From the NCBI GenBank assembly GCA_029266425.1, contig JAQSWY010000042.1:1-64000 (forward strand): a stretch of 64,000 bases of DNA, given 5' to 3'. The notes under the pieces were generated by a model. That model did no database searches and was not told where the DNA came from. It saw nothing but the letters and a program-made list of their open reading frames with translations. A program made the translations under genes and the position numbers. Shown here piece after piece: positions 3,629 through 55,462 of this stretch (within the stretch, counting starts at the first letter, position 1; each line of letters begins with the position of its first letter). The DNA is from Xanthobacteraceae bacterium. GTDB taxonomy: Bacteria > Pseudomonadota > Alphaproteobacteria > Rhizobiales > Xanthobacteraceae.

Positions 3629-3656
3629 ATTGAGAAGCAATGCCAGACATTTGCCA

Positions 3657-6184: not shown

Positions 6185-6291
6185 GACAATGCGTGTGAAA
6201 GCGCGTGCGCGGGCGCCGGTTTCGTCGTGGATAACTCGATCACCCCTTGATCGGGCAAAGGTTTCGCTCTAAGAGGGCCGCCTGCCGCGTT

Positions 6292-6367: not shown

Positions 6368-6555
6368 GCAAGGCCGAAGGCTCAGCTGCGCTTGCCGGTG
6401 AAGCGTCAAACATCACTTAAATATTCCAGCGTGAGCCGCGCATCCGATCGTCGCGATTCATCGCGCGACATTTCACCAGCGCGATTGCGAGCGATCTGCC
6501 AGAGCGTCCGGCACCTGTATGCTGAACGGCTTGATGGCGGCGAGGCGCGGTGGCG

Positions 6556-7716
6556 ATGAGGGCGACGGAAGAGTTCTATTCCCGCGTACCGCTGTTCGAG
6601 CGCTTCGACAGCCTGATGGACCAGGGCCATTACGTGCCGCTGCCGGACGACTGGTGGATCGGCATTACCGATGTCGTCGCTTCCAGCGAGGCCATTGGGC
6701 AGGGCCGCTACAAGATGGTGAACATGGCCGGCGCCTCGATCATCGCGGCGATGGCGAATGCGCTCGACCACAGCCCCTTTCCCTATGCCTTCGGCGGCGA
6801 TGGAGCGACCTTCGCCGTCGCGCCCACCGAGGCGTCGCTGGCGCGCAACGTGCTCGCCGCCACCACCACCTTCTCCCGCGACGAATTCGACCTGCCGCTG
6901 CGCGCGGCGCTGATTCCCGTCGCGGCGCTGCGTGCGCAGGGGCGGGACGTCAGGATCGCGCGCTTCGCCACCTCACCGCATGCGCGCTACGCCATGTTCG
7001 CCGGCGGCGGCATCGCCTTCGCCGAACAGGCACTCAAGCGCGGCGAGTTCGCCGTGCCGGCGGCCGCGCCCGGCACGCGGCCCGATCTCTCCGGGCTCTC
7101 CTGCCGCTGGCAGCAGATGGTGGCACGGCACGGCTTCATCCTGTCGCTGATCGTCGTGCCGCGCGGCGACGAGCAGGATGATGCTTTTCAAGCGCTCATC
7201 ACCGACATCCTGGCCATGACCGGCGGCGGGGCGGACGCGGCGCGGCCTATCCCAGACGAGGGGCCCGCGCTGCGCTGGGCTACCGACGGCATCGGTGTCG
7301 AGGCGCGCATCGGCGCCCCCGGCCGCATGCCGATGCCGCTGCGCCACCTCAAGATCGCCGTGCACTGGGCCGGCGCCGCCCTGGTGTTCTGGCTGGGTTT
7401 GCGACTCGGTCGGTTCGATCCGGCCCGCTACAGGCGCGAGGTCGCCGAGAACGCCGATTTCCGCAAATACGACGATGGTCTGCGGATGACGCTGGACGGA
7501 ACCGCGTCGATCGCCGATCGGCTGGAAGCGCGTCTGGAAGCGGCCGTTGCCGATCGCGTCGCCGAATATGGCCTGCATCGGCAGCAAGGGGCCGTCGTGA
7601 CCTGCTTCGTTCCGTCAGCGGTCGACAGCGACCATGTGCATTTCGTCGACGGCGCCAGTGGCGGCTACGCCGCCGCCGCACTGCGGCTGAAGCAGCGGCG
7701 CGCCGTCGCCTCCTAG
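6556..7716 (+). CDS. DUF3095 domain-containing protein
   Basis: This protein of about 386 residues starts ATEEFYSRVPLFERFDSLMD and contains WWIGITDVVASSEAI and ASIIAAMANAL followed by PYAFGGDGATFAV. That order is characteristic of DUF3095. The GGDG-like element next to a D-containing beta-alpha segment resembles the metal-binding core of class III nucleotide cyclases, but that is an inference and the product is unknown. The start is either GTG 6550 or ATG 6556; no strong ribosome binding site decides it. The gene stands alone after tRNA-Glu. Confidence 0.8.
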   Translation: MRATEEFYSRVPLFERFDSLMDQGHYVPLPDDWWIGITDVVASSEAIGQGRYKMVNMAGASIIAAMANALDHSPFPYAFGGDGATFAVAPTEASLARNVLAATTTFSRDEFDLPLRAALIPVAALRAQGRDVRIARFATSPHARYAMFAGGGIAFAEQALKRGEFAVPAAAPGTRPDLSGLSCRWQQMVARHGFILSLIVVPRGDEQDDAFQALITDILAMTGGGADAARPIPDEGPALRWATDGIGVEARIGAPGRMPMPLRHLKIAVHWAGAALVFWLGLRLGRFDPARYRREVAENADFRKYDDGLRMTLDGTASIADRLEARLEAAVADRVAEYGLHRQQGAVVTCFVPSAVDSDHVHFVDGASGGYAAAALRLKQRRAVAS

Positions 7717-7846
7717 CCGGGCAGGGCGCCTTGGGGCAGGGAACATAGCAGCGACCGGCTGTCGACACGACCAAGGAAAGCCCCATTGGCAAATAGAACC
7801 TTTTGTATATAGTCTAACTGGATTATTAAGAACGGGATTGAGGCAG

Positions 7847-9196
7847 ATGGTCAAGAAACCGCGGCAGATCCACTTGAATGCGTTTTTGCGCAATGTCGGG
7901 CAGCACGAAGCGGCCTGGCGTCTTCCCGAGACCGACACCGGCGCGGTCACCGACATCGGCCATTATCAGCGCATCGCGCAGCTTGCGGAGAAGGGCAAGC
8001 TCGATGCGATCTTCTTCGCCGATCACCCCGCGCTGAAGGACCGCTCCGAGGATCGTCCGTGGGATTCACTCGATCCGTTCACGCTGATCGCGGCGCTCTC
8101 CGGAGTGACCAGCAAGATCGGCCTCGTTGCCACCGGCTCGACCACCTATAACGACCCCTATGGCATTGCCCGTCGCTTCGCGACGCTCGACCATGTCAGC
8201 CGCGGGCGCGCGGCGTGGAATGTGGTGACCACCGCCAATGCGTCGGCGGCGGAGAATTTCGGCTTCGACCAGCACCCCGATCCGGATGCGCGCTATGCCC
8301 GCGCTGCCGAGTTCCTCGATGTCGCGTTCGCGCTCTGGGACAGCTGGGACGACGACGCGATTGTCGGCGACAAGGCGGGCGGGGTGTTCGTCGATCGCGA
8401 CAGGATCCACCGCATCGATCATGTCGGCCCGCATTTCCGCGTCGCCGGGCCGCTGGAGATCCCGCGCTCGCCTCAAGGGCGGCCGGTGATCTTCCAGGCG
8501 GGCTCCTCGGAGCCCGGCAAGGATCTCGCCGCCCGCTATGCCGATGCCATCTTCACCGCGCAGCCGACGATCGAGGAGGGGCAGGCCTTCTATGCCGACA
8601 TCAAGGCGCGGGTGCGCGCCCAGGGGCGCGATCCGGGCACGGTGCTGATACTTCCCGGTCTCTCCTTCTTCATCGGCGGGACCGAGGCGGAGGCCTTCGC
8701 GCGACGCGAGCAGTTCGAGGATCTGACGCTGCCGACCTACGGGATTGCGCAGCTCTCCCGCGTCACCGGCCTCGACCTCAGCAGCTTCGAGCTCGACAGC
8801 CTGATACGGATCCCGCCGCGGCCCGCGGACACCGGCAATCAGCGCAGCCGCCACGACCTCGTGCACCGCCTCACCAGCACCGAGGATCTCACGCTCCGCC
8901 AGTTGCTGCGCCGCCTCAGCGCCGGACGCGGTCATCGCATCGCGACCGGAACCCCGGAGCAGGTCGCCGCCACCATCGTCGAATGGTTCGAGAACGGTGC
9001 CGCCGACGGCTTCAATCTCATTCCTCCGGCCTTGCCGAATTCGCTCGCCGCCTTCGTCGAGGAGGTGGTGCCGCTGCTGCAGCGGCGCGGCCCGTTCCGC
9101 ACGGAGTACGAGGGCTCGACGCTGCGCGACCATCTCGGCATCGAGCGCCCGGCGGTGGCGCGCGGCGCGGCCGCGTTTTCGAGCGCGGCCGAATAG
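7847..9196 (+). CDS. LLM-class flavin-dependent monooxygenase (NtaA/SnaA/DszA type)
   Basis: This 449-residue enzyme has the bacterial-luciferase TIM-barrel fold. Members use reduced FMN from a partner reductase and O2 to cleave C-N or C-S bonds. Family marks are HLNAFLRNVGQHEAAWR, DAIFFADHPALK, RGRAAWNVVTTANASAAENFG and GRPVIFQAGSSEPGKDLAA. The ATG at 7847 was preferred to a TTG nine bases upstream. The AT-rich stretch 7785-7835 is probably the promoter. A complete ABC importer follows in the same direction, so the enzyme probably acts on an imported sulfonate, sulfone or similar compound; the exact substrate cannot be read from sequence. No flavin reductase is present in the operon. Confidence 0.9.
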   Translation: MVKKPRQIHLNAFLRNVGQHEAAWRLPETDTGAVTDIGHYQRIAQLAEKGKLDAIFFADHPALKDRSEDRPWDSLDPFTLIAALSGVTSKIGLVATGSTTYNDPYGIARRFATLDHVSRGRAAWNVVTTANASAAENFGFDQHPDPDARYARAAEFLDVAFALWDSWDDDAIVGDKAGGVFVDRDRIHRIDHVGPHFRVAGPLEIPRSPQGRPVIFQAGSSEPGKDLAARYADAIFTAQPTIEEGQAFYADIKARVRAQGRDPGTVLILPGLSFFIGGTEAEAFARREQFEDLTLPTYGIAQLSRVTGLDLSSFELDSLIRIPPRPADTGNQRSRHDLVHRLTSTEDLTLRQLLRRLSAGRGHRIATGTPEQVAATIVEWFENGAADGFNLIPPALPNSLAAFVEEVVPLLQRRGPFRTEYEGSTLRDHLGIERPAVARGAAAFSSAAE

Positions 9197-9234
9197 TCCC
9201 GCCCGGCTCCGGCTCTGTCAGTATGGGGATCCCC

Positions 9235-10083
9235 ATGAGCTTGATATCAACCCTCGGGCCGTCACGGCCCGCCGTACCGCGCGTCGCGACGGCGCCGGAC
9301 GGCAAGGCTACCAGCCTGCTCCCCAGGCAGCCTTTGCCGGCGCAGCGGCTGCTCGGGCCGGCGTTGGTCCTGCTGCTCTGGTACATCGCCTCGGGGGCGG
9401 GATGGATCTCGCCGGCGAAGATGCCGGCGCCGGGCACGGTGGTGGCAACGCTGTTCGAGATGATCGGCAGCGGTGCGCTCGTCAGCGATGTCCTCGCCTC
9501 GCTGCATCGGGCGGGGCTGGGGCTCGCCATCGGCATTGTCGGCGGCTTCTCGCTTGCGGTGGTCGCGGGGCTGACGCGGCTCGGCGACGCGCTGATCGAC
9601 GGCCTCGTCCAGATCAAGCGTTCCATCCCGAACCTCGCCTTGATCCCGCTCTTCATCATCTGGCTCGGCATCGGCGAAGCCATGAAGATCAGCATAATCG
9701 CGCTCGGCACGATGGTGCCGATCTACATCAACACCCATGCGGCGTTGCGCGGGATCGACCGGCGCTTCGTCGAGCTCGGCCAGGCGGTCGCGCTGTCGCA
9801 CTACCGCTTCCTGCGGCACATCGTGTTTCCGGCCTCGCTGCCCGGCTTCTTCACCGGTTTGCGCATGGCGGTGACGCATTCCTGGACCGCGCTGGTCGTG
9901 GTCGAGACCATCAATGCCACCAGCGGGATCGGCTTCATGATCACGCAGGCGCGCATCTATGGGCAGACCGACGTCGTGCTGGTCGGGCTGCTGCTCTATG
10001 GGGTGCTCGGCTTCAGCTCCGACGCCCTGGTCCGTGTCCTGGAACGGAGGGCCCTGTCATGGCGTCAGTCGCTCGCGCAGTGA
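9235..10083 (+). CDS. ABC transporter permease, SsuC/TauC type
   Basis: This 282-residue inner-membrane permease has about six hydrophobic segments starting at residue 40. The EAA-type cytoplasmic loop is seen around RFVELGQAVALSHYRFLRHI, followed by VFPASLPGFFTGLRMA. Length and sequence fit importers of sulfonates, taurine or nitrate. The ATG at 9235 is chosen over 9223 because GGGG at 9225-9228 gives sensible spacing. The start codon is part of a 14-base palindrome. The gene overlaps the ATPase gene by 25 bases. Confidence 0.9.
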   Translation: MSLISTLGPSRPAVPRVATAPDGKATSLLPRQPLPAQRLLGPALVLLLWYIASGAGWISPAKMPAPGTVVATLFEMIGSGALVSDVLASLHRAGLGLAIGIVGGFSLAVVAGLTRLGDALIDGLVQIKRSIPNLALIPLFIIWLGIGEAMKISIIALGTMVPIYINTHAALRGIDRRFVELGQAVALSHYRFLRHIVFPASLPGFFTGLRMAVTHSWTALVVVETINATSGIGFMITQARIYGQTDVVLVGLLLYGVLGFSSDALVRVLERRALSWRQSLAQ

Positions 10084-10796
10084 GCCAGCCGGCGGCGCCC
10101 GCCGCGGTGCGCGTCGAGAGCCTTCGCCGCGGCTTTGACGGCCGCACGGTTCTCACCGGCATCGATATCGCGATCGCCAGGGGCGAGTTCGTCGCCCTGC
10201 TCGGGCGCAGCGGTTCGGGCAAGAGCACGATCCTGCGCGCGGTCGCCGGGCTCGATGTCGAGGCCGGGGTCGAGGGAACCGGCACGATCGAGGTGCCGGC
10301 CCGCCGGGCGGTGCTGTTCCAGGACTCCCGGCTGCTGCCCTGGGCACGGGTGATCGACAATGTGGCACTCGGCTCCTACGGGCCGGGTTCCTGGCGCCGC
10401 GCCAAGGCCGCACTGGGCGAGGTCGGGCTCGCCGGATACGAGCGCAAATGGCCGAAGACGCTGTCGGGCGGCGAGCAGCAGCGCGTCGCGCTTGCCCGCT
10501 CGCTGGTGCGCGAGCCCGAACTCATCCTCGCCGACGAGCCGTTCAGCGCACTCGACGCGCTGACGCGGCTGCGCATGCAGCGCCTGCTTCTCCAGCTCTG
10601 CGAGCGTCATGGCCCCGCCGTGCTGTTCGTCACCCACGACGTGGAGGAGGCGCTTCGGCTCGCCGACCGCGTCATCATCATCGCCGACGGGCGGATCGTC
10701 CACGACCGGTCCACGAGCGGCGTCCGGGACAGCGCGGCGCGCTTCAGTGCCGCCCGCGACGAGATACTCGCGCGCCTCGGCGTCTCGCTCGACTGA
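10059..10796 (+). CDS. ABC transporter ATP-binding protein, SsuB/TauB type
   Basis: This 245-residue ATPase powers the importer. Walker A is GRSGSGKST (about residues 49-57), the signature is LSGGEQQR (about 135-142), Walker B is ELILADEP (about 154-161) and the switch His is in FVTHDVEEA (about 190-198). CGGAGG precedes the ATG at 10059, which lies inside the permease gene, so translation is coupled. It is somewhat short but has every catalytic element. Confidence 0.93.
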   Translation: MASVARAVSQPAAPAAVRVESLRRGFDGRTVLTGIDIAIARGEFVALLGRSGSGKSTILRAVAGLDVEAGVEGTGTIEVPARRAVLFQDSRLLPWARVIDNVALGSYGPGSWRRAKAALGEVGLAGYERKWPKTLSGGEQQRVALARSLVREPELILADEPFSALDALTRLRMQRLLLQLCERHGPAVLFVTHDVEEALRLADRVIIIADGRIVHDRSTSGVRDSAARFSAARDEILARLGVSLD

Positions 10797-10820
10797 TCGC
10801 ACTCATGAAGGCTTAGCACC

Positions 10821-11849
10821 ATGAAGCTCATGCATCTCCTCGCCCGGGCGACGGCGCTCGCGGCGCTGGCCCTCGCTCCTGTCGCCCTTGCTACGGCTAC
10901 GGCGGAGCCGGGGCAGATCCCGGTCAGCGTGCCGAAGGGCGTCAAGCTGGTCCTCGCCGACGACGCCAACTACGTCGCGAGCCTGCTGCGGCTGTCCGGC
11001 GAGCAGGTGAAGCTCGCGGCGGATGTCACCTTTGCGAACTTCAGCAGCGGGCCGTTGCGCCTCGAGGCGATCCGCGCCGGGGCGGCGCAGATCGGCGCGG
11101 TCGGGGATGTTCCCCCGATCCTTGCCCATTTCTCCGGCGCCGGCGTGGTCATCGTCGGTGCGGTCATCACCTCGGGTCCCGGCAATCTGGTCACCACGGC
11201 GCCGGGCTCGAAGATCGAGACGCTCGAAGACCTCAAGGGCACGCGGATCGGCATCAATGTCGGCACCGCCCAGCAGGCGACCGTGCTGCGCAATCTCAGG
11301 GCGTCCGGGCTCACCATCGCCGATGTGCAGCCGGTCAATCTCGGCCTCGCCGAGTTCGCCGACGCGCTGCGGGCCGGGCAGATCGACGCGGCGGTGCTGA
11401 AGCAGCCCGACCGCACCCGCTACCTCGCCTCCGTGGAGGGGCAGGGGGCCAAGGCGATCGCCAATGCCCGGGGCACGCCGGCCAACATCAAGTATCTCTA
11501 CGCAAGCACCACCGCTTTGCAGGACCCCGCCCAGGCCGCCGCGATACGTGACCTCGTGGTGCGCTGGTATCGGGCCCATTTGTGGAAGAACGGCAATAAG
11601 GCGCTCTGGATCAGCGATTATCTGGTGAAGGATCAAAGGCTCAATGCGACCGACGCCGGTCTCGTCTGGGAGAGCGAGGGCGATGCAACCTCCATTCCGG
11701 GTCTCGCCAGGCTCGTCCCGGTACAGCAGGACACGATCGATCTCCTGCAGGCGGCCGGCCAATTCAAGGGCAAGACACTCAAGGCCGAGGACGAGTTCGA
11801 CCTGCGCTACAAGGATCTGACCGATCGCTCGCCGGCGGCGAACGACTAG
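10821..11849 (+). CDS. ABC transporter substrate-binding protein, SsuA family
   Basis: This 342-residue periplasmic receptor has a signal peptide of about 28 residues (hydrophobic core LARATALAALALAPVALA). The mature part has the NMT1/SsuA layout: EAIRAGAAQIGAVGDVPP, IETLEDLKGTRIGIN and a hinge with QIDAAVLKQPDR. It lies 24 bases after the ATPase gene and completes the monooxygenase-permease-ATPase-receptor operon. Together these suggest uptake and oxidative cleavage of an organosulfur or organonitrogen compound. Confidence 0.9.
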   Translation: MKLMHLLARATALAALALAPVALATATAEPGQIPVSVPKGVKLVLADDANYVASLLRLSGEQVKLAADVTFANFSSGPLRLEAIRAGAAQIGAVGDVPPILAHFSGAGVVIVGAVITSGPGNLVTTAPGSKIETLEDLKGTRIGINVGTAQQATVLRNLRASGLTIADVQPVNLGLAEFADALRAGQIDAAVLKQPDRTRYLASVEGQGAKAIANARGTPANIKYLYASTTALQDPAQAAAIRDLVVRWYRAHLWKNGNKALWISDYLVKDQRLNATDAGLVWESEGDATSIPGLARLVPVQQDTIDLLQAAGQFKGKTLKAEDEFDLRYKDLTDRSPAAND

Positions 11850-11906
11850 AATACGGCTTCCTGCCCCTGAGCCGTCATCTGTCGACTGCTTTGGCTCGAC
11901 CGTTCT

Positions 11907-12494
11907 CTAGCGATCGGGTGCCAGCAGCTTGGCGATCTGGGGGTTGACGATTGCGATGAACAGTCCGGGATCGCCGAAAGCCCTTACAGAGAGCATTGCC
12001 CCGTGAACCGATGCCATCAGCATCTGGGCCTCCTGTTCCGGCCGCCTGTCCAGCCGGAACAGATCCTGTTCTACTCCGGCCTCCAGCACCGACGTAAGCC
12101 ATCTCGCGAGACTGTGGAAATGGGCACGCACGCGTGATGCGACCTCTTCCGGCAGCATCTGCATCTCGCTGGCGAGCATCGCACAGACGCAGAAGGGCAG
12201 CGAGGCATCCCGGATGCATGTCTGCCAGAAGTTCACGTAGGACTGCAGTTGTTCGGCAGGACTTGGGAACTGCTCTTGAAGAGACTTCAAGCCCACTTCC
12301 GCCTGCTGCCTGTAGCGATCCACCAGCACCGAGACCAACTCGGCCTTCGTCGGAAAGTGATGGTGGATGCTAGCCTTCCTGATGCCGATCGCAGCCGAGA
12401 TGTCGGCATAGCTGAACCCGTTATAGCCTCCCTCGACGATGAGAGACTGGGCTATGTCGAGGATCTTCTCCGAAGTCGAAGTCATTGATTTCAT
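11907..12494 (-). CDS. TetR/AcrR family transcriptional regulator
   Basis: This 195-residue repressor has an N-terminal helix-turn-helix (GFSYADISAAIGIRKASIHHHFPTK, about residues 26-50) and a C-terminal ligand-binding domain with three cysteines (C92, C97 and C99; CIRDASLPFCVC). A redox-active or electrophilic inducer is therefore possible, though not shown. The start at 12494 lies only seven bases from an operator-like palindrome at 12502-12517, which sits between a TTGACA -35 (12528-12523) and a TAGGCA -10 (12505-12500) reading into the gene. Autorepression is likely. It is divergent from the DUF308 gene at 12633, whose promoter carries a second copy of the palindrome. Confidence 0.92.
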   Translation of the reverse strand: MKSMTSTSEKILDIAQSLIVEGGYNGFSYADISAAIGIRKASIHHHFPTKAELVSVLVDRYRQQAEVGLKSLQEQFPSPAEQLQSYVNFWQTCIRDASLPFCVCAMLASEMQMLPEEVASRVRAHFHSLARWLTSVLEAGVEQDLFRLDRRPEQEAQMLMASVHGAMLSVRAFGDPGLFIAIVNPQIAKLLAPDR

Positions 12495-12501
12495 AAGGCT
12501 G

Positions 12502-12517
12502 CCTACCTTCTGGTAGG
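12502..12517. promoter_or_regulatory. TetR operator copy 1
   Basis: CCTACC-TTCT-GGTAGG has perfect 6-base arms. It falls between the -35 and -10 elements of the tetR-type gene's own promoter. The same half-sites recur at 12596. Confidence 0.8.
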
Positions 12518-12576
12518 GGGATTGTCAAGGTTACTGCAGCGCTCCTGTTCTCACGAAGGAGTGCTCAAGCGTGGGG

Positions 12577-12611
12577 TTGACCGACACTCAATCTTCCTAC
12601 TAGTTGGTAGG
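12577..12611 (+). promoter_or_regulatory. DUF308 gene promoter with TetR operator copy 2
   Basis: TTGACC at 12577-12582 is a good -35. The palindrome CCTACT-AGTT-GGTAGG at 12596-12611 (one arm mismatch relative to copy 1) covers the expected -10 position (TACTAG or CTAGTT). A repressor bound here would block the DUF308 gene directly. Confidence 0.75.
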
Positions 12612-12632
12612 CCTCAACAAGGAGCCTGCCTC

Positions 12633-13214
12633 ATGCAAAACCGATCTTCGACCCAATCCGACTGGCTGCGGTCTTATTATTTCACACGCGCGATATTCTC
12701 CATCGCGTGGATTGCCGCCGCCATTGTCTTCAGTGGCCAACCCGGTTCCACGGCGTTTCTGCTCGTGCTCTACCCGGCATGGGACGCTCTCGCCAATCTG
12801 GTCGACGCTCGGGCAAACGGCGGCCTGAAAGCCAACCCGTCCCAAGCACTGAATGTCGTGGTCAGCCTGATAACGACGCTCGCCGTGATCGCGGCTGTCA
12901 GCAACAGCAGCTATGCCGTTCTGGCCGTGTTCGGGGTTTGGGCGATCCTGTCGGGTCTGCTGCAACTGTACACGGGGGTAAGGCGTCGGCGTACCTATGG
13001 GGCGCAATGGGCGATGATCCTGAGTGGTGCGCAGTCGGCTCTCGCCGGCGGCTTCATGATCAGCCTGTCCCTCGGCACGGTTGTGCCGACGATTCTGGAC
13101 ATCGCGCCCTATGCGGGGTTCGGCGCGTTCTACTTCCTGCTTTCCGCAATCTGGCTTGTCGTCGTTGCCTATCGCGACGCAGGTGCGAAAGCGCCGCCCC
13201 ATCCGACGGCTTAG
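12633..13214 (+). CDS. DUF308 family integral membrane protein
   Basis: This 193-residue protein has about six hydrophobic segments in the paired arrangement of DUF308/HdeD proteins (IFSIAWIAAAIVFSG, STAFLLVLYPAWDALANL, VVVSLITTLAVIAAV, and so on). HdeD relatives are linked to acid or membrane stress, but the role here is unknown. The ATG at 12633 follows AAGGAGCC with good spacing. It is the probable sole target of the neighbouring TetR regulator. Its stop codon overlaps that of the convergent luciferase-like gene (TTAG, 13211-13214). Confidence 0.85.
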   Translation: MQNRSSTQSDWLRSYYFTRAIFSIAWIAAAIVFSGQPGSTAFLLVLYPAWDALANLVDARANGGLKANPSQALNVVVSLITTLAVIAAVSNSSYAVLAVFGVWAILSGLLQLYTGVRRRRTYGAQWAMILSGAQSALAGGFMISLSLGTVVPTILDIAPYAGFGAFYFLLSAIWLVVVAYRDAGAKAPPHPTA

Positions 13215-14233
13215 CGCCAGCCCATCGCCGGCGCGATATATTTGAGGATCGCCTCGATGACATGGGCGTTGTACGCGACCCCGAGCTGGTTCGGCACGGT
13301 TATCAGCAGCGTATCGGCCTCAGCAATGGCCTCGTCGGCCTTCAGTTGCTGCACGAGCACATCCGGCTCGGCGGCATAGCTGCGGCCAAAGATCGCCCGC
13401 GTGCGCTCATCAATATAGCCTATCGAATCCGCCGCCTGCCCCGAGCCTCCGAAATAGACGCGATCCTCATCGCTCACGAGGGGAAAAATGCTTCGGCTGA
13501 CGGACACGCGCGGCTCTCGCGCGTGTCCGGCCTCCTTCCAGGCCGCGCGATAGGCGCGGATCTGCTTCGCCTGCTGAACATGCAGGGGCTCCCCGGTCTC
13601 GTCTTCCTTCAACGTCGAGCTCTGCAGGTGCATGCCCAGCTTCGCCGCCCAGACCGCAGTGGCGTTCGAGGCGGCACCCCACCAGATCCGCTCGCGCAAT
13701 CCTTTGGAATGCGGCTCAAGGCGCAGCAGGCCTGGCGGGTTAGGGAACATCGGGCGCGGATTGGGCGTGGCAAAACCCTCTCCTCTCAGCAGGTCGAGGA
13801 ACACTTCCGCATGGTGCCGGCCCATGTCGGCATCGCTCTGCCCCTCGGCCGGCGCGTAGCCGAAATAACGCCAGCCATCGATCACCTGCTCGGGCGAGCC
13901 GCGGCTGATGCCGAGCTGAAGGCGTCCACCCGCAATAAGGTCCGCTGCCCCGGCATCCTCTGCCATGTACATCGGGTTCTCGTAACGCATGTCGATGACC
14001 GCGGTGCCGATCTCGATCCGGTTGGTCCTCGCACCGATTGCCGCGAGCAGCGGGAAGGGCGAGGCGAGCTGGCGGGCGAAATGGTGGACGCGGAAATAGG
14101 TCCCGTCGGCCCCGAGTTCCTCGGCGGCGATGGCGAGCTCGATGGATTGCAGCAGCGTATCGGCAGCCGAACGGGTCTGCGAATGGGCCGAGGGCGACCA
14201 ATGGCCGAACGAGAGGAAGCCGATCTTCTTCAC
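13211..14233 (-). CDS. LLM-class flavin-dependent oxidoreductase (luciferase-like)
   Basis: This 340-residue protein is of the F420/FMN luciferase-like family: KKIGFLSFGHWSPS at the N terminus, TNRIEIGTAVIDMRYENP, and AEDAGAADLIAGGRLQLGISRGSPEQVIDGW. It begins at a GTG (14233) with GGAG nine bases upstream. Substrate is unknown; relatives are annotated as alkane-monooxygenase-like or oxidoreductases of the MsnO8 type. It stands alone, and its 3' end overlaps the DUF308 stop codon. Confidence 0.85.
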   Translation of the reverse strand: MKKIGFLSFGHWSPSAHSQTRSAADTLLQSIELAIAAEELGADGTYFRVHHFARQLASPFPLLAAIGARTNRIEIGTAVIDMRYENPMYMAEDAGAADLIAGGRLQLGISRGSPEQVIDGWRYFGYAPAEGQSDADMGRHHAEVFLDLLRGEGFATPNPRPMFPNPPGLLRLEPHSKGLRERIWWGAASNATAVWAAKLGMHLQSSTLKEDETGEPLHVQQAKQIRAYRAAWKEAGHAREPRVSVSRSIFPLVSDEDRVYFGGSGQAADSIGYIDERTRAIFGRSYAAEPDVLVQQLKADEAIAEADTLLITVPNQLGVAYNAHVIEAILKYIAPAMGWR

Positions 14234-14561
14234 ATGGACTCCGAAGGTTGCGAGAGAAGGCGCATCGGGATGCGAACATCTTTCCGTCTCGTTGCTGGCA
14301 GGCGGCTTCGGCCGCGGCCATCCCGACCTTGAAGATGCTGGGTCCATGTCTCGCTAGAGCATTTCCCGATCAGATGGAATCATCCGATCGAATAGGAATT
14401 TCTCCAACTTAACGATCTGGACGACGCCCCCAGGCTCGCGGGACCTGTCCGTTGACCCAGCCGCGGTCCTGCGCCGCGACTGACGAGGGCCTCGGGCGCA
14501 TCCCGGCCCGGCATCGCTTCAACGACTGGCTTGAGCGGCGCCGTGCGCGGCGAGGGGGGCG
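14234..14561. other. Gene-free stretch with a family C palindromic repeat
   Basis: The 328 bases between the luciferase-like gene (starting at 14233) and the HAD gene (ending at 14562) hold a family C repeat at 14356-14411. The rest is GC-rich sequence with no reading frame showing protein-like composition. Confidence 0.6.
14356..14411. repeat. Palindromic repeat family C, copy 1
   Basis: The unit begins AGAGCATTTCCCGATCAGAT, continues with GGAATCATC and ends near GGAATTTCTCCAACTTA. The inner dyad CAGATG/CATCcg and outer dyad GAGCA-TTCC/GGAA-T-TCTC make an imperfect hairpin. The first 27 bases are identical to copy 2 at 55476. Confidence 0.8.
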
Positions 14562-15236
14562 TCAGCGACGGCCGCCGACCTCGTCGAGGCGCGACAGCAA
14601 GTCGGCGGGATCCTCGAACACGCGGTAGGCGCCGGCGGCCTGGAGTTCGGCGGCACCATAGCCGCCGGATAGCAGCCCGATGCCGAGCGCCCGGCAGCGG
14701 ACCGCAGCCAGCATGTCCCAGATGCTGTCGCCGACCACGACCGAGGTCTCGATCGGGACGTCGAGCCGCGCCGCCGCCGCCAGGAACAGGTCGGGGTCCG
14801 GCTTGGCGTATTTGACGAGGTCCCGGGTGATGACGGGCACCTGCCCGGGATCGACGCCCAAAGCCGCGAGATTGGGCCCCGCGGTCTCCAGCCGGCCGCT
14901 GGTGGCGATGGCCCAGGCGATGCCGTTCTCTGTGAGCGCGGCGAGCAGCTCGCGCGCGCCCGGCAATGGGCGGACGCTCTTCACGTGGCGCTTGTAGGCC
15001 TCGGCGTGCAGCTGGCGCAGCCGCTCGATCCGGCTCTCGCTGATCTCGAGCCCGGTCTCGCGCAGCAGCTGATTGGTGAACAGCCCGCCACTCATGCCGA
15101 TCTTGCGGTGGATGCGCCAGACCGAGAGCTCGATCCCCTCGGCGTCGAGCGCCTCCTTCCAGGCGGTGACGTGCTGGTAGACGCTGTCGACCAAGGTGCC
15201 GTCAAGATCGAACAGGAAGTTGGTGTCGATGCGCAT
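14562..15236 (-). CDS. HAD-superfamily hydrolase
   Basis: This 224-residue phosphatase-like protein belongs to the HAD subfamily of beta-phosphoglucomutase and phosphoglycolate phosphatase. Motif I is FLFDLDGTLVDS (nucleophile Asp in DLDGT), motif II is the Ser of AIATSGR, and motif III/IV are KPDPDLF and VVVGDSIWDM. A helical cap domain lies between residues 15 and 85. The ATG at 15236 is chosen for MRIDTNFLFD. The frame is open upstream but has no family similarity. Substrate is unknown, and no operon partner is evident. Confidence 0.9.
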   Translation of the reverse strand: MRIDTNFLFDLDGTLVDSVYQHVTAWKEALDAEGIELSVWRIHRKIGMSGGLFTNQLLRETGLEISESRIERLRQLHAEAYKRHVKSVRPLPGARELLAALTENGIAWAIATSGRLETAGPNLAALGVDPGQVPVITRDLVKYAKPDPDLFLAAAARLDVPIETSVVVGDSIWDMLAAVRCRALGIGLLSGGYGAAELQAAGAYRVFEDPADLLSRLDEVGGRR

Positions 15237-15361
15237 CGGGGAGCCCCTTGTGTCGGCAGACCAGTCTCTCCCGGCAACACGCGTGGGTCCAGAAGGTTGC
15301 CGTCCCGCGCGCCTGCGCCACCCGCGACCGATTGACAGCAGGGTGGGCACGTGGCTCCATC

Positions 15362-15375
15362 TGCAAACGATTGCG
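15362..15375. promoter_or_regulatory. LacI-type operator A
   Basis: TGCAAACGATTGCG has the symmetric core GCAA-ACGA-TTGC. It lies 67 bases upstream of the receptor gene at 15442. The same 14-mer is repeated at 17648, and its core is inverted at 17579. Confidence 0.75.
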
Positions 15376-15441
15376 TAGCCAGCTTTGCCGGACATGAAAG
15401 AACGCGCCCAAAGGCGCGCCGATCATCCTTGGGAGGAATGA

Positions 15442-16449
15442 ATGAAGCGCCTTGCCTATGCCTTGCTGGCAGTTTGCGCCGGCGCTCTCGCGGCCCCGGC
15501 CAGTCCGACGCGCGCCGCCGGCTACGAGGGGCAGGTGGTCACGATCATCGTGCCGCACGGGCCGAGCGGGCCGATGAACCAATATGCGCGGATGATCGCG
15601 CCCTATCTCGCCAAGCATCTCAAGGCGAAGGACGTGCGCATCGAGAACCAGCCGGGTGCCGGGACGCTCAAGGGCACCAATCTGTTGTGGAATGCCCGGC
15701 CGGACGGGTTGACCATCGCCTTCACCAGCATCGCGACCCCGATCCTGGCCCAACTGGCCGAGAGTGCCGGCGTGCGCTTCGACGCCGCCAAGTTCGTCTA
15801 TCTCGGCCGCGTCTCCTACGAGCCGCGCCAGCTCTATGCCGGCAGCACGTCCAAGATCCATTCGGTTGCCGACATCGTGCAGCTCGGCCGCCCGTTCGTG
15901 TACCCGGCACAGGGCACGGACGAGGATTTCTACACCATGTCGATGCTGTCCGACGCGCTCGACTTTCAGATGAAGATCGTCACCGGCTATGAGGGCATTG
16001 CCGACGCCACGCTCGCCATCATCAGGGGCGAGGCCGACGGCTATATGGCCTCGCCGCCGGCGGTGCGTGGCTCGCTGCAATCCGGCGACCTGCGCCCCAT
16101 CCTGACCATCCTCGACCAGCGCCTGCCGGACTTCCCGCAGGTGCCGACGATTTTCGAGACGGTGAAGGATGCGGAGGCGGTGGAGATGGCGAAGACCATC
16201 ATGACCATCCAGTCGCTGCACCGTACCTTCTTCGGCCCGCCGGAAATGGACCCGAAGATGGTCGAGGAGATGCGCAAGGTGATCGGCGAAACGCTGGCCG
16301 ATCCCGAGCTGATCGCGCAGGCCGCTAAGATGGGCTTCCCGCTCAGCTTCGCCGACGGCGCCACCATGCAGGAGCGCGTCGCTGCCGTCATCGCGGCGAG
16401 CCAGACCTTGAAGCCGGTCCTCAAGGCGGCGCTGGCCTCGATCAAATAG
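15442..16449 (+). CDS. Tripartite tricarboxylate-type (Bug family) periplasmic receptor
   Basis: This 335-residue solute receptor has a signal peptide (YALLAVCAGALAAPA, cleavage near TRAA). The mature part has the Bug/TctC pattern VVTIIVPHGPSGPMNQYARMIA and IENQPGAGTLKGTNLLWNARPDG. Such receptors bind carboxylates or aromatic acids and normally feed TctAB permeases, but no TctA or TctB gene is in the window, so it is an orphan receptor. GGGAGGA precedes the ATG at 15442. It is probably the first gene of the LacI-controlled catabolic island, judging from the operator at 15362. Confidence 0.88.
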   Translation: MKRLAYALLAVCAGALAAPASPTRAAGYEGQVVTIIVPHGPSGPMNQYARMIAPYLAKHLKAKDVRIENQPGAGTLKGTNLLWNARPDGLTIAFTSIATPILAQLAESAGVRFDAAKFVYLGRVSYEPRQLYAGSTSKIHSVADIVQLGRPFVYPAQGTDEDFYTMSMLSDALDFQMKIVTGYEGIADATLAIIRGEADGYMASPPAVRGSLQSGDLRPILTILDQRLPDFPQVPTIFETVKDAEAVEMAKTIMTIQSLHRTFFGPPEMDPKMVEEMRKVIGETLADPELIAQAAKMGFPLSFADGATMQERVAAVIAASQTLKPVLKAALASIK

Positions 16450-16490
16450 TCCTGAAGGCCGTCAAGCCCTGCCACGACGGCGTTCGGTAC

Positions 16491-17531
16491 TCACGGCCGC
16501 AGCACGATGCGGTCGCGCGAGCTGTTCCACACCTCGGCATAGGCGCGCGCGGCGTCGGTGAGCGCGTAGGTCGCGCCGGAGTGCACCGGGAAGGCCTTGA
16601 GCGCGCCGCTCTCGAAGCCTGGGCGCAGCGCGTCCAGTATCCTGCCGCAGGCGGCGCCGTTGAGTGCCAGGCTGTCGATCCCGATGAAGCGGTGACGGCC
16701 GCGGAAGAAGCGGAAGATGTCGAACGGCACGGCGCGGTCGATAGTGGAGATGAAGAGCTGCCGGGCTTCCGCCGCCATCGCCGCGCAGGCCGCCTCGAAA
16801 TAGGGGCTGCCGACGGTGTTGAAGACGATGTCGGCACCGTGCCCGCCGGTCCGCTCGCGCACAGCGGCGGCGATGTCCTGGCTGGAGGCGTCGATCATGT
16901 CGACCGGGCCGGTGGCATGGCCCATATAGGGCTCGGCGGTGCGCTCGACGGCGAAGACGCGCGCGCCGGCGCGGGTGGCGAGTTGCACCACCGCTTGGCC
17001 GACCTTGCCATTGCCGCCCAGCACCAGCACGACATCGGTCGGCTTCACCCCGCCGGCGGATTCGAGGCCCTCATAGGCGGTGATGAAGGGCACGCCGATA
17101 GCGCCGGCCTCGTCGAGCGTGACCGTCGAAGGCTTCTCGAAGATCTCGTCGGCCGAGACCACCAGATATTTGGTGTGGGTGCCGTCGCGGCGGATACCGA
17201 GCTCCCCCGAGCTGCCCCAGACCTCCTTGCCGATGAGATGGGCCGGGCCTTCCAGCACCACGCCGGCATAGTCGCGTCCCGGAGTCCGCGGCCAGATCGC
17301 GTAGGGCATATGGCCGAGCGCGGCCTTGACGTCGCTCATATTGACGCCCGACGCCTTCACCTCGACCAGGCACTGCCCCGGGCCCGGCACCGGGATCGCC
17401 ACCGGCTCGACGGAAGGCGCCAGCGCCTCGACGCCGTCGGCCTTGCGGTGCAGGCGCAATGCCGGACCCGTGCCCGCAGTGCCATTCCGCGCGTCCTGTG
17501 AGGAGATGCCGTCGAGAGTTGTATCTGTCAT
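16491..17531 (-). CDS. Zinc-independent MDR-family oxidoreductase (quinone reductase-like)
   Basis: This 346-residue medium-chain dehydrogenase/reductase has a GroES-like domain (PVPGPGQCLVEVKASGVNMSDVKAALG, PRTPGRDYAGVV) and a Rossmann domain (VVLVLGGNGKVGQAVVQLA). The catalytic-zinc Cys and the GHE motif are absent, so it is a zinc-free NADPH-dependent enoyl or quinone reductase type rather than an alcohol dehydrogenase. GAGGATCG precedes the ATG at 17531. It is divergent from the dioxygenase operon and shares a regulatory region with two inverted LacI operators. It presumably reduces an intermediate of the same catabolic route. Confidence 0.88.
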   Translation of the reverse strand: MTDTTLDGISSQDARNGTAGTGPALRLHRKADGVEALAPSVEPVAIPVPGPGQCLVEVKASGVNMSDVKAALGHMPYAIWPRTPGRDYAGVVLEGPAHLIGKEVWGSSGELGIRRDGTHTKYLVVSADEIFEKPSTVTLDEAGAIGVPFITAYEGLESAGGVKPTDVVLVLGGNGKVGQAVVQLATRAGARVFAVERTAEPYMGHATGPVDMIDASSQDIAAAVRERTGGHGADIVFNTVGSPYFEAACAAMAAEARQLFISTIDRAVPFDIFRFFRGRHRFIGIDSLALNGAACGRILDALRPGFESGALKAFPVHSGATYALTDAARAYAEVWNSSRDRIVLRP

Positions 17532-17578
17532 CACCGATCCTCGTTCGTGGATTCTGGCTAGCACAAGCACCGATGTTG

Positions 17579-52270: not shown

Positions 52271-55200
52271 GTGCTGCGGCTTGGGCACGAACGTAGCGGC
52301 AACCGCGAGTGCGCTTCGTTGGACGAGAATCGCCAGCTCGAAAACCGCCTTCTTTCCTTCATCTGGCGTTACAGCGCCGGGCAGCAACTGCTCCTGCTGC
52401 TGCTCACCGTCGCCTCGTTCCCGATCCTTTATGTCTCGCTGGAAATCCCGAAGTTCATCATCAACGGCGTCATCCAGGGCCATGATTTTCCACGACGCGT
52501 GCTCGGGATGGAGATCGGGCAGACGACGTTCCTGTGGCTGCTGTGCCTCGCCTTCCTGGCCTGCGTCTTCGCAAACGGCGTCATCAAGATGCAGCTCAGC
52601 ATCTATCGAGGCATCGTCGGCGAGCGGCTGATCCGCCGGCTGCGCTTCGCGCTGATCGCGCAGCTCATGCGCTTCCCGCTGCAGCGCTTCCACAGCGTGT
52701 CGCAGGGCGAGGTGGTGTCCATGGTCACCGCCGAGGCCGAGCCGCTCACCGGCACTATGGGCGACGCCTTCGCCCAGCCGGTGTTCCAGCTCGGCCAGAT
52801 GCTGACCATCATCGTGTTTCTGTTCGTGCAGAGCCCCTGGCTCGGCCTTGCCGGCATCGCGCTGATCCCGCTGCAGGCCTATCTGATCCCGGTCATGCAG
52901 CGGGAGGTGAACCGCATGCATCACCGCCGTGTCGCCTATGTCCGGCAGTTTTCCGAGCGGATCGGGGAAAGCATATCGGGGGCAGGGGATCTCAGGATCA
53001 ATGGCGGCGCGCCGCGTCGCCTCGCCGAGTTCGGGCACTTGCTTGGCGACCTGTTCTTCATCCGGCTCGATATCTTCAAGCGCAAGTTCCTGATCAAGTT
53101 CGTCAATAACTTCATCACCCAGCTCACGCCGTTCTTCTTCTTTGCGGTTGGGGGCTATCTGGTGATCATCGGCCAGCTCAGCGCCGGCGCCCTGATCGCC
53201 GCGATCGCGGCGGCGCGCGACATCGCCGATCCGTGGCGCGAATTGCTGCTCTACTGGAACAGCGCGCAGGAAGCCTCCTCGCGCTACGAGCACATCGTCA
53301 CCCAGTTCAATCCGCCGGGCATGCTCCCGGCGGCGCTTGCGCAGGGCCGACCGGACGAGGTGCCGCGGCTTGATGGTCCCCTCCGGCTCGACGGCGTCAC
53401 CGTCACCGACATGTCCGGGGTGGTGCTGCTCGACCAGATCGAGCTGGAGATACCTGCGCGCGCGATGGTCGCGATCAAGATCCCGGATGCCGCCGTGCGC
53501 CAGGCGCTCGCCGAGGTGATCTCGCGCATCCGCCCGCCCATCGCGGGCAAGGTCGAGATTGCGGGGCACGATGTTGCCGAGCTGCACCAGGGCGTGCTCG
53601 CCGCCCGCATCGGTGTCGCCACCAGTACCCCCTACATCTTCCGCTCCTCCATCGCCGCCAACATCCAGATGCCGCTGCGCGTCGCCCCGAACGCGGAAGC
53701 CGCTGATAGCATCGGCCAGCCGCCGGCCCCGGACATGAAGCTGGCCATTCTGGAGGCGGAGCGCGCCGGCAATGATTTCGAGCCGCTCGATCGCGGCTGG
53801 TTCGATTCCGGCGCGAGTGGCCTCGCCGACGAGCAGGCGATCCGCGATTGGTGGCTCAAGATCATCGAGACGATGGGGACCAGCAATTTTCTGCTCGACC
53901 GTGCGCTGGACTGCTATCTCGAACCCGATCGCCACGGTGCGTTGGCCGAACAGGTGATCGGGCTGCGCACCACCGTGGCGGGCTCACTGCAGACGGCGGA
54001 ACTCGCGGACCGGGTGCGGCACTTCGACGAGAACGTTTTCAATCCCGGCCTCTCGGTCGGCGAGAACCTGTTGTTCGCGGTGCGCCGGCGGCCATCGTCC
54101 GGCGGCCTGCCGGAGTTCGGCCCGGTCTTCTTCCAGGTGCTGGAGCAACTCGATATTGCCGGACCGCTGATCGACTTCGCCGCAGATCTCACCAACGCGC
54201 TGGTGCGGGCCTTCGGCGAGGTCGGGCCTCGCCATCCTTTGCTGCGCCGCCTGACCCATATCGGGCCCGATGCCTTCGAACGGCTGCGCGCGATCGACAC
54301 GAGGCGGATGAGCGGGCACGCGTTCGAGGCTGCCGACCGCGCCATCCTGCTCGCCTTGCCGTTCGCGATCACCGCGGACGATCTCGGCTCCGGCTTCCCC
54401 GCCGGCCTCGAAGCCACCATTTTGGAGGCGCGAAAGAAGCATGGCGCAACATTGCGCGCATTGGCGGCCGAAGTTTTCCAGCCGATCGAGAGCAGCGCTT
54501 TCAATCACAATCTGACTGTGCTCGACAATCTGCTGTCGGGCACGCTCACCGGCTCGCAGATCGACGTGCGCCGCATCCGCAGCCTGGCGCAGGAGGCGCT
54601 GATCGAGAGCGGCCTAGCCGGCGAGTTCATGCTGCTGATCGGAGAGACCGACACCGGGCTCGGCGGCGCCAACCTGTCGCCGGTGGCACGCGAGCGCATC
54701 GGCTTTGCCCGCGCCGTGATCCGGCGGCCGGATGTGCTGATCCTCGATCATGCGCTCGCCTCGCAGTCGCCGGCCGAGCGCGAGGCGATGCGGACCAAGC
54801 TCAGGGCGCTGCTTCCGGAGAGCACCATCATCTTCCTCGAGCCGGACTTCCCGCAGCCCGAAGCGTTCGACCTCGTCATCGAGATCCGTGGCGGCCGGAT
54901 CGTCGGTTCCTCGGCACGGCTCCAGCCGATGCCGGCACCGCGGCTGTCGAGCATCACGGCGGACCAGCAGAGCAAGTTCGACGCCCTGTCCGCGGTCCCC
55001 GAGTTCCGCGGCCTGAAGCGCGGGCAGATCGAATTGCTCGCCTATGCTTCCCGCTGGGTCTCGGCCCGCGAGGGCGAATATCTGTTCCGATCCGGAGACG
55101 AGACCGACGGAGCCTATGTCGCGGTCGCCGGCGCGGCCGAGCTTCGTTGGCCGGGTGCAGGCCCGGAACTGGAACCGATCGACACGATCACGCCGGGGCG

Positions 55201-55462
55201 GCTGATCGGCGACCTGTCGGTCGTGCTCGACGAGGATCGCATCATCGACATGGTCGCGGTCTCGGACTTCACCGCGCTGCGCATCGGCAAGCGCGAGCTT
55301 CTCGACATCATCGAGTCGGACATCACCGTCGCGCTGCTGCTGCTCCGCACCGTCGGCCGGCACCTTCACGGCGTCGCCGAGGAGCGGGCCGAGATGAACG
55401 CCGAACAGGGCGGAACAGCCGCGATGATGGCCCCGAGGCCGCGCGGCGAGACCCTGCAATAG
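52271..55462 (+). CDS. ABC-exporter-like protein with degenerate NBD and C-terminal cNMP-binding domain
   Basis: This is a protein of about 1060 residues. Residues 35-340 form an ABC type-1 membrane domain (LLLLLTVASFPILYVSLEIPK, VGERLIRRLRFALIAQLMRFPL, FSERIGESISGAGDLRING). The nucleotide-binding region has no Walker A: IKIPDAAVRQAL replaces GxxGxGKST near 402. The signature is LSPVARERIGFARA (802-815), and Walker B is DVLILDHALAS with His827 instead of the catalytic Glu. About 350 extra residues separate the halves. Residues 905-1040 are a cyclic-nucleotide-binding domain (GEYLFRSGDETDGAYVAVAG). The start is uncertain: GTG 52271, TTG 52319 or further upstream. Probably not an active ATPase of the ordinary kind. 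Confidence 0.85.
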   Translation: MLRLGHERSGNRECASLDENRQLENRLLSFIWRYSAGQQLLLLLLTVASFPILYVSLEIPKFIINGVIQGHDFPRRVLGMEIGQTTFLWLLCLAFLACVFANGVIKMQLSIYRGIVGERLIRRLRFALIAQLMRFPLQRFHSVSQGEVVSMVTAEAEPLTGTMGDAFAQPVFQLGQMLTIIVFLFVQSPWLGLAGIALIPLQAYLIPVMQREVNRMHHRRVAYVRQFSERIGESISGAGDLRINGGAPRRLAEFGHLLGDLFFIRLDIFKRKFLIKFVNNFITQLTPFFFFAVGGYLVIIGQLSAGALIAAIAAARDIADPWRELLLYWNSAQEASSRYEHIVTQFNPPGMLPAALAQGRPDEVPRLDGPLRLDGVTVTDMSGVVLLDQIELEIPARAMVAIKIPDAAVRQALAEVISRIRPPIAGKVEIAGHDVAELHQGVLAARIGVATSTPYIFRSSIAANIQMPLRVAPNAEAADSIGQPPAPDMKLAILEAERAGNDFEPLDRGWFDSGASGLADEQAIRDWWLKIIETMGTSNFLLDRALDCYLEPDRHGALAEQVIGLRTTVAGSLQTAELADRVRHFDENVFNPGLSVGENLLFAVRRRPSSGGLPEFGPVFFQVLEQLDIAGPLIDFAADLTNALVRAFGEVGPRHPLLRRLTHIGPDAFERLRAIDTRRMSGHAFEAADRAILLALPFAITADDLGSGFPAGLEATILEARKKHGATLRALAAEVFQPIESSAFNHNLTVLDNLLSGTLTGSQIDVRRIRSLAQEALIESGLAGEFMLLIGETDTGLGGANLSPVARERIGFARAVIRRPDVLILDHALASQSPAEREAMRTKLRALLPESTIIFLEPDFPQPEAFDLVIEIRGGRIVGSSARLQPMPAPRLSSITADQQSKFDALSAVPEFRGLKRGQIELLAYASRWVSAREGEYLFRSGDETDGAYVAVAGAAELRWPGAGPELEPIDTITPGRLIGDLSVVLDEDRIIDMVAVSDFTALRIGKRELLDIIESDITVALLLLRTVGRHLHGVAEERAEMNAEQGGTAAMMAPRPRGETLQ

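Follow-up and report, generated by a model that had tools for sequence, protein, structure and literature searches.

A fused pseudo-ABC exporter with a triplicated NBD segment and a cyclic-nucleotide-binding-like domain, and its family in Alphaproteobacteria

The protein described here is encoded in the window, meaning the whole 64-kb stretch of DNA that was analysed. Within an exporter-fold family that is widespread in Alphaproteobacteria, with members in 98 of the 289 genomes of the class that were sampled, it forms a highly derived branch marked by fusion. Each chain is modeled with a single membrane domain of exporter type and a single NBD fold, and the aligned motif positions indicate that its clade has lost the ATPase residues. 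By profile comparison, the segment from the Q-loop to the signature is a tandem triplication inside that one NBD. The reading that we prefer, which we consider about evenly poised between right and wrong, is that an exporter fold mostly freed from ATP, with a cNMP-binding subunit, serves the synthesis or export of envelope glycan. The family is apparently unstudied; a literature search, mostly of open-access papers, found nothing describing it. Homologues on plasmids of Ruegeria, Sulfitobacter, Azospirillum and Rhizobium carry the database labels "ABC transporter transmembrane domain-containing protein" or "cyclic nucleotide-binding domain-containing protein", and among the rows listed such labels give domain names only and assign no function. 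A homologue is also located on pSymB of S. meliloti.

Domain layout and the triplicated segment

An ORF check bears out the ORF and frame given in the earlier note, on the + strand, with 1063 aa counted from GTG 52271 and a stop codon closing the frame. The frame stays open 5' of this GTG, which has no clear ribosome-binding site by eye, and TTG 52319 is an alternative start. Pfam finds ABC_membrane (PF00664) at residues 90-312 (E = 4.9 × 10−18) and cNMP_binding (PF00027) with E = 9.2 × 10−11, while ABC_tran matches in its C-terminal half only, at residues 742-829, with 23.9 bits where the cut-off is 25; a scan restricted to 53300-55100 gives 25.8 bits. Pfam gives these three domains only, and a C39 peptidase domain is absent. 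With the motif reading, the matches confirm the order first described from the letters, an ABC type-1 membrane domain followed by a region with no Walker A and then a cNMP domain. The features are collected in Table 1.

Table 1. Features of the window protein and their positions in the window.
Feature	Residues	Position	Strand	Basis or remark
Whole CDS, fused pseudo-ABC exporter/cNMP protein		52271..55462	+	Start codon uncertain
Type-I exporter transmembrane domain with long intracellular helices	~27-345	52349..53305	+	Pfam, AlphaFold2 helices, fold matches
Pseudo-NBD, N-terminal part	365-440	53363..53590	+	AlphaFold2 pLDDT ~90 or more; aligned to solved exporter NBDs
Walker A position, IKIPDAAVRQ	402-411	53474..53503	+	Glycine loop, Lys and Ser/Thr all gone
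Repeat R1, genuine Q-loop strand, then YIFRSSIAANIQM and helical part	~446-546	53606..53908	+	hhalign
Repeat R2, FDENVFNPGLSVGENLLFA... and the helices after it	~577-648	53999..54214	+	hhalign
Repeat R3, FQPIESSAFNHNLTVLDNLLSG... running into the pseudo-signature	~731-793	54461..54649	+	hhalign
Signature position, LSPVA in place of LSGGQ	802-806	54674..54688	+	Alignment
Walker B, VLILDH	822-827	54734..54751	+	Asp kept; catalytic Glu replaced by His
Cyclic-nucleotide-binding-like domain, C-terminal	931-1017	55061..55321	+	Pfam cNMP_binding
Phosphate-binding-cassette position, GDLSVVLDEDRIIDM	980-994	55208..55252	+	Glu replaced by Asp, Arg990 kept, next Thr/Ser replaced

The transmembrane domain matches solved exporter folds with a best score of Z = 24.4, and the AlphaFold2 model of the NBD, with pLDDT mostly above 90, superimposes on the ComA NBD at Z = 24.2 over 218 residues with 2.2 Å rmsd. 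In its membrane domain, its NBD fold and the order of its domains the protein agrees with type-I (ABCB-like) exporters such as MsbA, TmrAB and TM287/288. Unlike those exporters, the window protein lacks Walker A, the Q-loop Gln, LSGGQ, the catalytic Glu and the switch His, and it adds the triplicated Q-loop-to-signature segment and the fused cNMP domain.

Three stretches resembling the sequence after a Q-loop had been noticed earlier and taken as a sign that several degenerate NBDs were merged. The stretches are real, starting exactly at residues 455, 590 and 744, and an internal-repeat test by hhalign between family profiles finds three copies, with probability 94 for R1-R2 (E = 1.1 × 10−7), 94 for R1-R3 (E = 1.4 × 10−7) and 98.5 for R2-R3 (E = 1.8 × 10−15); control pairs all scored below 3, except one pair with overlapping segments. 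Each copy has an Asn that is near-invariant in the family, Asn464 in 204/208 members and Asn599 and Asn753 in 208/208 each. The merger itself is rejected, because the model has one NBD fold and the repeated part is the Q-loop-to-helical segment only. Compared with ordinary type-I exporters, the triplication adds roughly 250-300 residues. Given the insert alone (residues 468-800), Foldseek returns no PDB match at E ≤ 0.001, which is no proof of a new fold. VIA-align gives weak rows for it, the best with Z = 3.3 over 65 residues at 3.1 Å, and several of these, among them the top one, are chains of ABC exporters matched over the apparent Q-loop/helical part.

ATPase motifs across the family

At the Walker A Lys position there is Arg in the window protein and in 78 of the 80 named fused homologues. 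Walker B retains D826 and has H827 at the catalytic Glu position, the His that the earlier note had pointed out, and the Q-loop Gln and switch His positions are Ser452 and Pro858; Gln is found at 452 in 0/80 named fused members. The missing P-loop is likewise borne out in the wider set of 110, which pools near-genome members with the named fused set, window protein included: Walker A Lys occurs in 0/109 (the members with a letter at that column) and catalytic Glu in 0/110. The named set is the product of a selection, since the 456 relatives gathered by tblastn at E 1e-3 only may include ordinary exporters, and the analysis used the 80 that were kept. A search of viral contigs found no relatives.

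The first 30 members, and then the 110, suggested that loss of Walker A is universal, and the class-wide sample overturned this. Among its 96 members, a count that leaves aside the fragments under 800 aa (L253, L258 and L259) and holds one doubtful long-branch member (L257), Walker A Lys is present in 60, 5 of which have the Ser/Thr. Over all 96, Walker A Ser/Thr is found in 7, Walker B Asp in 16, catalytic Glu in 50, switch His in 32 and Q-loop Gln in 21, and 2 members combine Lys, Ser/Thr, Asp and Glu. Homologues with intact motifs, which were to count against the earlier description, do therefore exist as rare members such as L181, which retains Lys, Thr, Asp, Glu and His; the clade of the window protein is without the motifs. 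The tree requires 20 or more changes of the Lys state. Both trees were made with FastTree only, with about 17 picked from the 80 named fused members and without the rest or 12 of the near-genome members, and L257 is omitted from the second.

These counts bear on the possibility that ATP still powers export by the window protein, or by most of the family, either at an altered site that binds ATP through rearranged magnesium ligands or through a partner half-transporter with working sites. We think this unlikely, though several observations favor it. Lys, Glu and His persist class-wide in the numbers just given, so some members may still bind ATP or even hydrolyze it, and L181 has nearly all of the motifs. 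Further, the commonest combination, in 56/96, has Asp/Glu for the Walker A Ser/Thr together with Asn/Ser for the Walker B Asp, which looks as if a carboxylate had moved, and the association of acidic Walker A with non-Asp Walker B gives a Fisher p of 0.003 with kinship uncorrected. Once kinship is respected, however, the median p is 0.22, and swapped magnesium ligands, which the raw counts suggested, lose their significance. Against a powered window protein, every tested motif is missing from it, and neither Lys nor catalytic Glu is found in any of the three family genes of its genome. As for a partner, the three nearest tested neighbors of the window gene are LysR, SDR and alpha/beta hydrolase genes, none of them an exporter, although the chain may pair with an ordinary exporter half encoded elsewhere in the genome.

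The loss of motifs, and an assembly in 222 contigs with 7.5% contamination, could also speak for a decaying pseudogene or an assembly artefact. This we consider refuted for practical purposes by selection and by orthologues. The dN/dS is 0.16 for the whole gene and 0.04 across residues 801-880, which places the gene under purifying selection; a genome of the same genus, assembled as one contig, holds a full-length orthologue with 89% identity; and 80/80 named fused homologues have open frames of more than 1000 aa.

The cNMP pocket and the gene neighborhood

A canonical phosphate-binding cassette reads Gly-Glu ... Arg-(Thr/Ser/Ala). The window protein has GD..R.I where the canonical pocket has GE..R.T. 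Arg990 is invariant among 54 fused proteins (alignment A2), the canonical pocket is found in 0/80 named fused homologues and Gly-Asp in 73/80 of them. Among the family's cNMP proteins encoded by separate genes, 73/83 match the canonical pattern GE-x(7-9)-R[TSA]A. Of the two family paralogues in the window genome, one (C212) has a fused cNMP domain with a canonical pocket, and the cNMP protein beside the other (C219) departs from it. Because the pocket is altered, cyclic-nucleotide binding by the window copy is not secured, and this copy, standing alone, might respond to a different ligand or be locked in one state.

In 80/99 class-wide loci the stricter test finds a cNMP protein, either as a fusion or encoded downstream, and in 19/99 it finds none. 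Class III cyclases adjoin both paralogues: downstream of C219 there is a cNMP gene and then a Fer2+Guanylate_cyc protein, and upstream of C212 a CHASE2-Guanylate_cyc gene and an MBL-fold gene, with similar cyclase sets at L043, L050 and L254. The near-locus count of cyclases is 12/20. Class-wide, 8/99 fetched stretches have one at E < 1e-15, not all adjacent. The profile behind this count was made from seven family-locus cyclases whose loci it then recovered, and in the 64-kb window it finds no cyclase at E 1e-6. The earlier idea of a cyclic-nucleotide-linked membrane protein thus gains from the 80/99 loci and the paralogue cyclases, and loses from the altered pocket of the window protein.

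Glycosyltransferases are the other recurrent neighbor, found in the fetched stretch of 67/99 class-wide loci. A GT28-like gene is present at 63 loci, and at 58 of these it lies within 500 bp. These counts, like those of the cyclases, are from profile searches, used in place of neighbor clusters, which are blurred by antisense ORFs. Glycosyltransferases of these types are found at 1/80 named fused loci, and a profile search of the 64-kb window finds none.

A cyclase signal beside a membrane effector with a cNMP domain might also be a Pycsar-like anti-phage pair. In some family loci a class III cyclase does neighbor a membrane protein linked to cNMP, and PADLOC models of PycC match both cyclases tested, as its Pycsar effector models match, at domain level, the single separate cNMP protein tested. 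The domains matched by these models are widespread outside defence. We nevertheless find this reading very improbable, since 0 PADLOC models match the window protein, which unlike Pycsar effectors has an exporter fold; envelope genes, the glycosyltransferases above among them, recur as neighbors in many families of the class; and two of the cyclase types bear sensor or redox domains (CHASE2, Fer2).

Rather doubtful, too, is a scaffold through whose membrane domain nothing passes and whose role, controlled by a cyclic nucleotide, is to bring together envelope enzymes such as glycosyltransferases. The glycosyltransferase linkage agrees with it, as do the repeated changes of the ATPase motifs and the near-invariant Asn residues of the helical triplication, which may be a surface for protein contacts. 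On the other side, the many invariant residues of the membrane domain in a 10-row family alignment suggest that movement or conduction persists, and the glycosyltransferase cluster is missing from the named fused loci, that of the window included.

Proposed function and related systems

In the preferred reading of an exporter fold mostly freed from ATP, we infer that a dimer forms as in other type-I exporters, with the NBDs serving as a regulatory platform and not as an ATPase. The triplicated segment would enlarge the helical subdomain that contacts the intracellular coupling helices in ABC exporters. Cyclic nucleotide, made in some lineages by the adjoining class III cyclase, would bind the cNMP domain, and the ligand-bound domain would alter the dimer and so switch the membrane domain. 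For most lineages we propose the making or export of envelope glycan as the output, given the glycosyltransferase genes near the family gene. Several of the counts given above tell against this reading. Walker A Lys (60/96) and catalytic Glu (50/96) persist in the class-wide sample. The clade to which the window protein belongs is precisely the one that lacks the canonical pocket, in the window protein as in all 80 named fused homologues, and the cNMP protein beside C219 departs from it as well. The window has neither a glycosyltransferase of these types nor a class III cyclase, and a single one of the 80 named fused loci has such a glycosyltransferase. Class-wide, the loci without a fused or downstream cNMP protein and the scarcity of cyclases point the same way. 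More tentatively, and as something we think possible but doubtful, the clade may have swapped ATP for cyclic nucleotide as the mover of the membrane domain, with the NBD as a triplicated regulatory body and with a cNMP subunit gating a path for envelope glycan or its precursor; in some lineages a dedicated cyclase would supply this subunit, and a neighboring MBL-fold hydrolase might clear the nucleotide.

Exporter folds turned to other uses are known. SUR1/2 and CFTR use the fold as a regulator or channel and have degenerate nucleotide sites, although their NBDs still bind nucleotide and they are not known to have a cNMP domain. The likeness to the proposed role lies in the use of an exporter fold for regulation or gating, and SUR2 appears among the fold matches of the AlphaFold2 model. 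HetC of Nostoc combines an exporter fold with a cNMP domain, as the window protein does, and with a C39 peptidase (PMC10986499). Its cNMP domain is N-terminal and accompanied by the peptidase domain, whereas that of the window protein is C-terminal with no peptidase. The HetC cNMP domain is reported to be required for function and the ATPase catalytic Glu is essential, and the domain bound ppGpp, with no protection seen from cyclic nucleotides such as cAMP (PMC10986499).

If the preferred reading is right, about one third of the sampled genomes of the class would hold an exporter-fold protein that has largely done with ATP and retained its shape along with a triplicated, near-invariant segment, and cyclic-nucleotide signaling would be tied directly to the building of envelope glycan. 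The family would also span a natural range of NBDs, some nearly intact and others wholly degenerate, in which the ABC fold could be probed without hydrolysis, and would caution that a domain name alone is insufficient for calling such genes transporters.

Domains, motifs and predicted fold of the window protein

The reading frame of the fused gene is confirmed with a product of 1063 aa; it runs on without a stop upstream, and the start codon is uncertain. Pfam finds ABC_membrane, the C-terminal half of ABC_tran, and cNMP_binding, bearing out the layout in the earlier note of an ABC membrane domain followed by a cNMP domain. The 25 shown of 98 matching NCBIfam models are all ABC families, most of the top ones exporters, and all 25 score far below their cut-offs. 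By the usual definitions of the ABC motifs (Walker A, signature, Q-loop, switch), IKIPDAAVRQ stands at the Walker A position and His827 takes the place of the catalytic Glu, so that the two losses noticed earlier both stand; the signature position is LSPVA, the Q-loop Gln position is Ser452, and the switch position is Pro858.

The AlphaFold2 model, made with 54 sequences, has a mean pLDDT of 82.9 and a pTM of 0.70, with the NBD mostly over 90 and the insert largely helical. VIA-align, run on candidates from Foldseek, matches the model to type-I exporters (best Z = 24.4, 437 residues, rmsd 9.7 Å) and to single NBDs (ComA, Z = 24.2, 218 residues, 2.2 Å). The insert modeled alone has a pLDDT of 86.5, and a PDB search with it gave no convincing match. 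By the motifs tested, the window protein is placed outside the ATP-driven exporters, though sharing their predicted fold. SUR and CFTR are regulators with an ABC fold, to which the window protein may be likened. Of the proteins found that join a cNMP domain to an exporter fold, HetC comes closest, but in HetC the ATPase Glu is essential, and the cNMP domain, which bound ppGpp, lies at the N-terminus (PMC10986499).

Coordinates of the features discussed (L-numbers are fetched loci; C212 and C219 are family paralogues elsewhere in the window's own genome)
Feature	Position	Strand	Content
Window gene	52271-55462	+	Fused pseudo-ABC exporter and cNMP domain
R1	residues 440-560		Segment of window protein
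R2	residues 570-690		Segment of window protein
R3	residues 725-815		Segment of window protein
Insert	residues 468-800		Part of window protein modeled alone
L044 (C219)	8661-17544		One block: family gene, then cNMP, ferredoxin-domain class III cyclase (Fer2-Guanylate_cyc), oligopeptide-type ABC importer
L045 (C212)	2901-9385	all same	CHASE2-Guanylate_cyc cyclase, MBL-fold gene, fused family gene, consecutive
L055 (Ruegeria)	6658-7786	-	Fused gene divergent from DUF6478 gene and 119-aa gene
L127 (MAG contig labelled Granulosicoccus)	8001-11108		Sole named relative seen from outside Alphaproteobacteria

The triplicated segment and the fate of the ATPase

The three Q-loop-like segments placed by the earlier note near 455, 590 and 744 are exactly there, and profile comparison of family sub-alignments cut around R1, R2 and R3 indicates that they are related to each other: R1-R2 has probability 94 (E = 1.1 × 10−7), R1-R3 94 (E = 1.4 × 10−7), and R2-R3 98.5 (E = 1.8 × 10−15), while the controls, paired with pieces of the membrane domain, the NBD core and the C-terminal part, were all below 3 except the overlapping pair R2/'mid'. 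Each copy corresponds to the canonical region that starts at the Q-loop strand, passes through (S/T)IxxNLLFG and ends in the helices preceding the signature. Because R1 opens with the genuine Q-loop strand and R3 leads into the genuine signature position, tandem triplication within a single NBD is the simplest description, in preference to the several merged degenerate NBDs first suggested. The unit's Asn is conserved in 204/208, 208/208 and 208/208 members (R1, R2, R3) and Arg566 in 208/208, a constancy that contrasts with the freely varying ATPase residues.

Relatives were found in 23 of 61 near genomes (E = 10−20), in 98 of 289 genomes of the class, counting the window's own (E = 10−60), and in 27 of 398 genomes of the phylum (E = 10−100), all 27 within the window's class, which is Alphaproteobacteria because the named relatives belong there. 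The occurrence at L127 could be transfer or MAG contamination. Among 110 members from the near genomes and the named fused set, the Walker A Lys is found in 0 of the 109 with a letter there and the catalytic Glu in 0/110. Walker A loss is nevertheless not universal, as the alignment of homologues proposed earlier makes plain: across the class, counting 96 members and leaving out three fragments among the 99 loci, Lys is kept in 60, the Walker A Ser/Thr in 7 (Asp or Glu in 72), the Walker B Asp in 16 (Asn or Ser in 68), the catalytic Glu in 50, the switch His in 32, and the Q-loop Gln in 21. Lys and Glu are both present in 38 and both missing in 24; Lys, Ser/Thr, Asp and Glu occur together in 2, L181 and L256, rare members that have the triplicated segment yet almost intact ATPase motifs and are useful for comparison. 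An acidic Walker A Ser/Thr position accompanies Asn or Ser at the Walker B Asp in 56/96 (loci L161-L259), as if the magnesium-binding carboxylate had switched sides; among class-wide members this association is not significant with kinship respected.

A FastTree tree built from the membrane-domain columns requires a minimum of 21 changes in the Lys state over 133 rows, or of 20 over 132 rows when the doubtful L257 is left out, a count that alone does not separate gain from loss. The window protein's clade of 23 rows (local support 99) contains no row with Lys or Glu. Our reading is repeated decay of the ATPase across the family, complete in the window's branch. Comparison with an 89% identical orthologue, from a single-contig genome in the same genus, gives an overall dN/dS of 0.16. 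By region the ratio is 0.09 for the membrane domain, 0.25 both for residues 365-440 and for the repeats (441-800), 0.04 for residues 801-880, and 0.09 for the cNMP domain; on this evidence the window gene is a working one.

The cNMP partner and neighboring genes

Of the 99 class-wide loci, 71 have the cNMP protein encoded by its own gene less than 1 kb downstream, 9 have it fused, and 19 show none by this test; a second, different profile finds a cNMP ORF anywhere in the fetched stretch in 90. Taking class-wide and near sets together, 66 of 83 separate cNMP genes overlap the family gene or start within 50 bp, and 73 of the 83 proteins show the canonical pocket pattern GE-x(7-9)-R[TSA]A, which by the general rule for such pockets can hold a cyclic nucleotide. 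The pattern is also present in 9 of 16 fused members of these sets, including C212. The pocket at L044 deviates from it. The window protein and 80/80 named fused homologues lack the canonical pattern, with Gly-Asp replacing Gly-Glu in 73 of those 80, and thus the altered pocket marks the clade of the window protein.

At least one of four glycosyltransferase types lies in the fetched stretch of 67/99 class-wide loci. Of these 99 loci, 63 carry a GT28-like gene; 58 of the 63 have it within 500 bp of the family gene, and 60 have it on the opposite strand. Pfam on single representatives of the cluster gives Glycos_transf_1, Glyco_tran_28_C, His_Phos_1 and an oligopeptide-type ABC importer, plus a weak, below-cut-off DUF2334 match for one more gene. 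In Rhizobium leguminosarum the annotation places importer genes first, followed by three glycosyltransferases, the family gene and the cNMP protein, and Sinorhizobium meliloti pSymB is similar (annotation, and profiles on L260).

A class III cyclase, not always adjacent, is found in 8/99 class-wide (E < 10−15), 12/20 near, and 0/80 named fused loci with a profile built from seven of the loci counted. The row upstream of and including C212 is possibly a write/erase/read module for a cyclic nucleotide; its MBL protein scores 48 bits against a cyclic-nucleotide phosphodiesterase model, far below the cut-off of 400, and RNase Z models score better. The 119-aa gene at L055 has no Pfam match. The window locus has none of the neighbors described above for other family loci, and profile searches find neither the glycosyltransferase types nor a cyclase there.

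Proposed mechanism

The predicted fold, motif loss, triplication, cNMP coupling, selection and gene context come from the sequence and model analysis itself. Building on them, we propose that the family protein would dimerize, that ATP dependence would have been lost in the window's clade, and that the membrane domain would be switched by the cNMP domain. In lineages with the glycosyltransferase cluster the output would be an envelope glycan, and the window's own copy may have an altered ligand or be locked in a single state.
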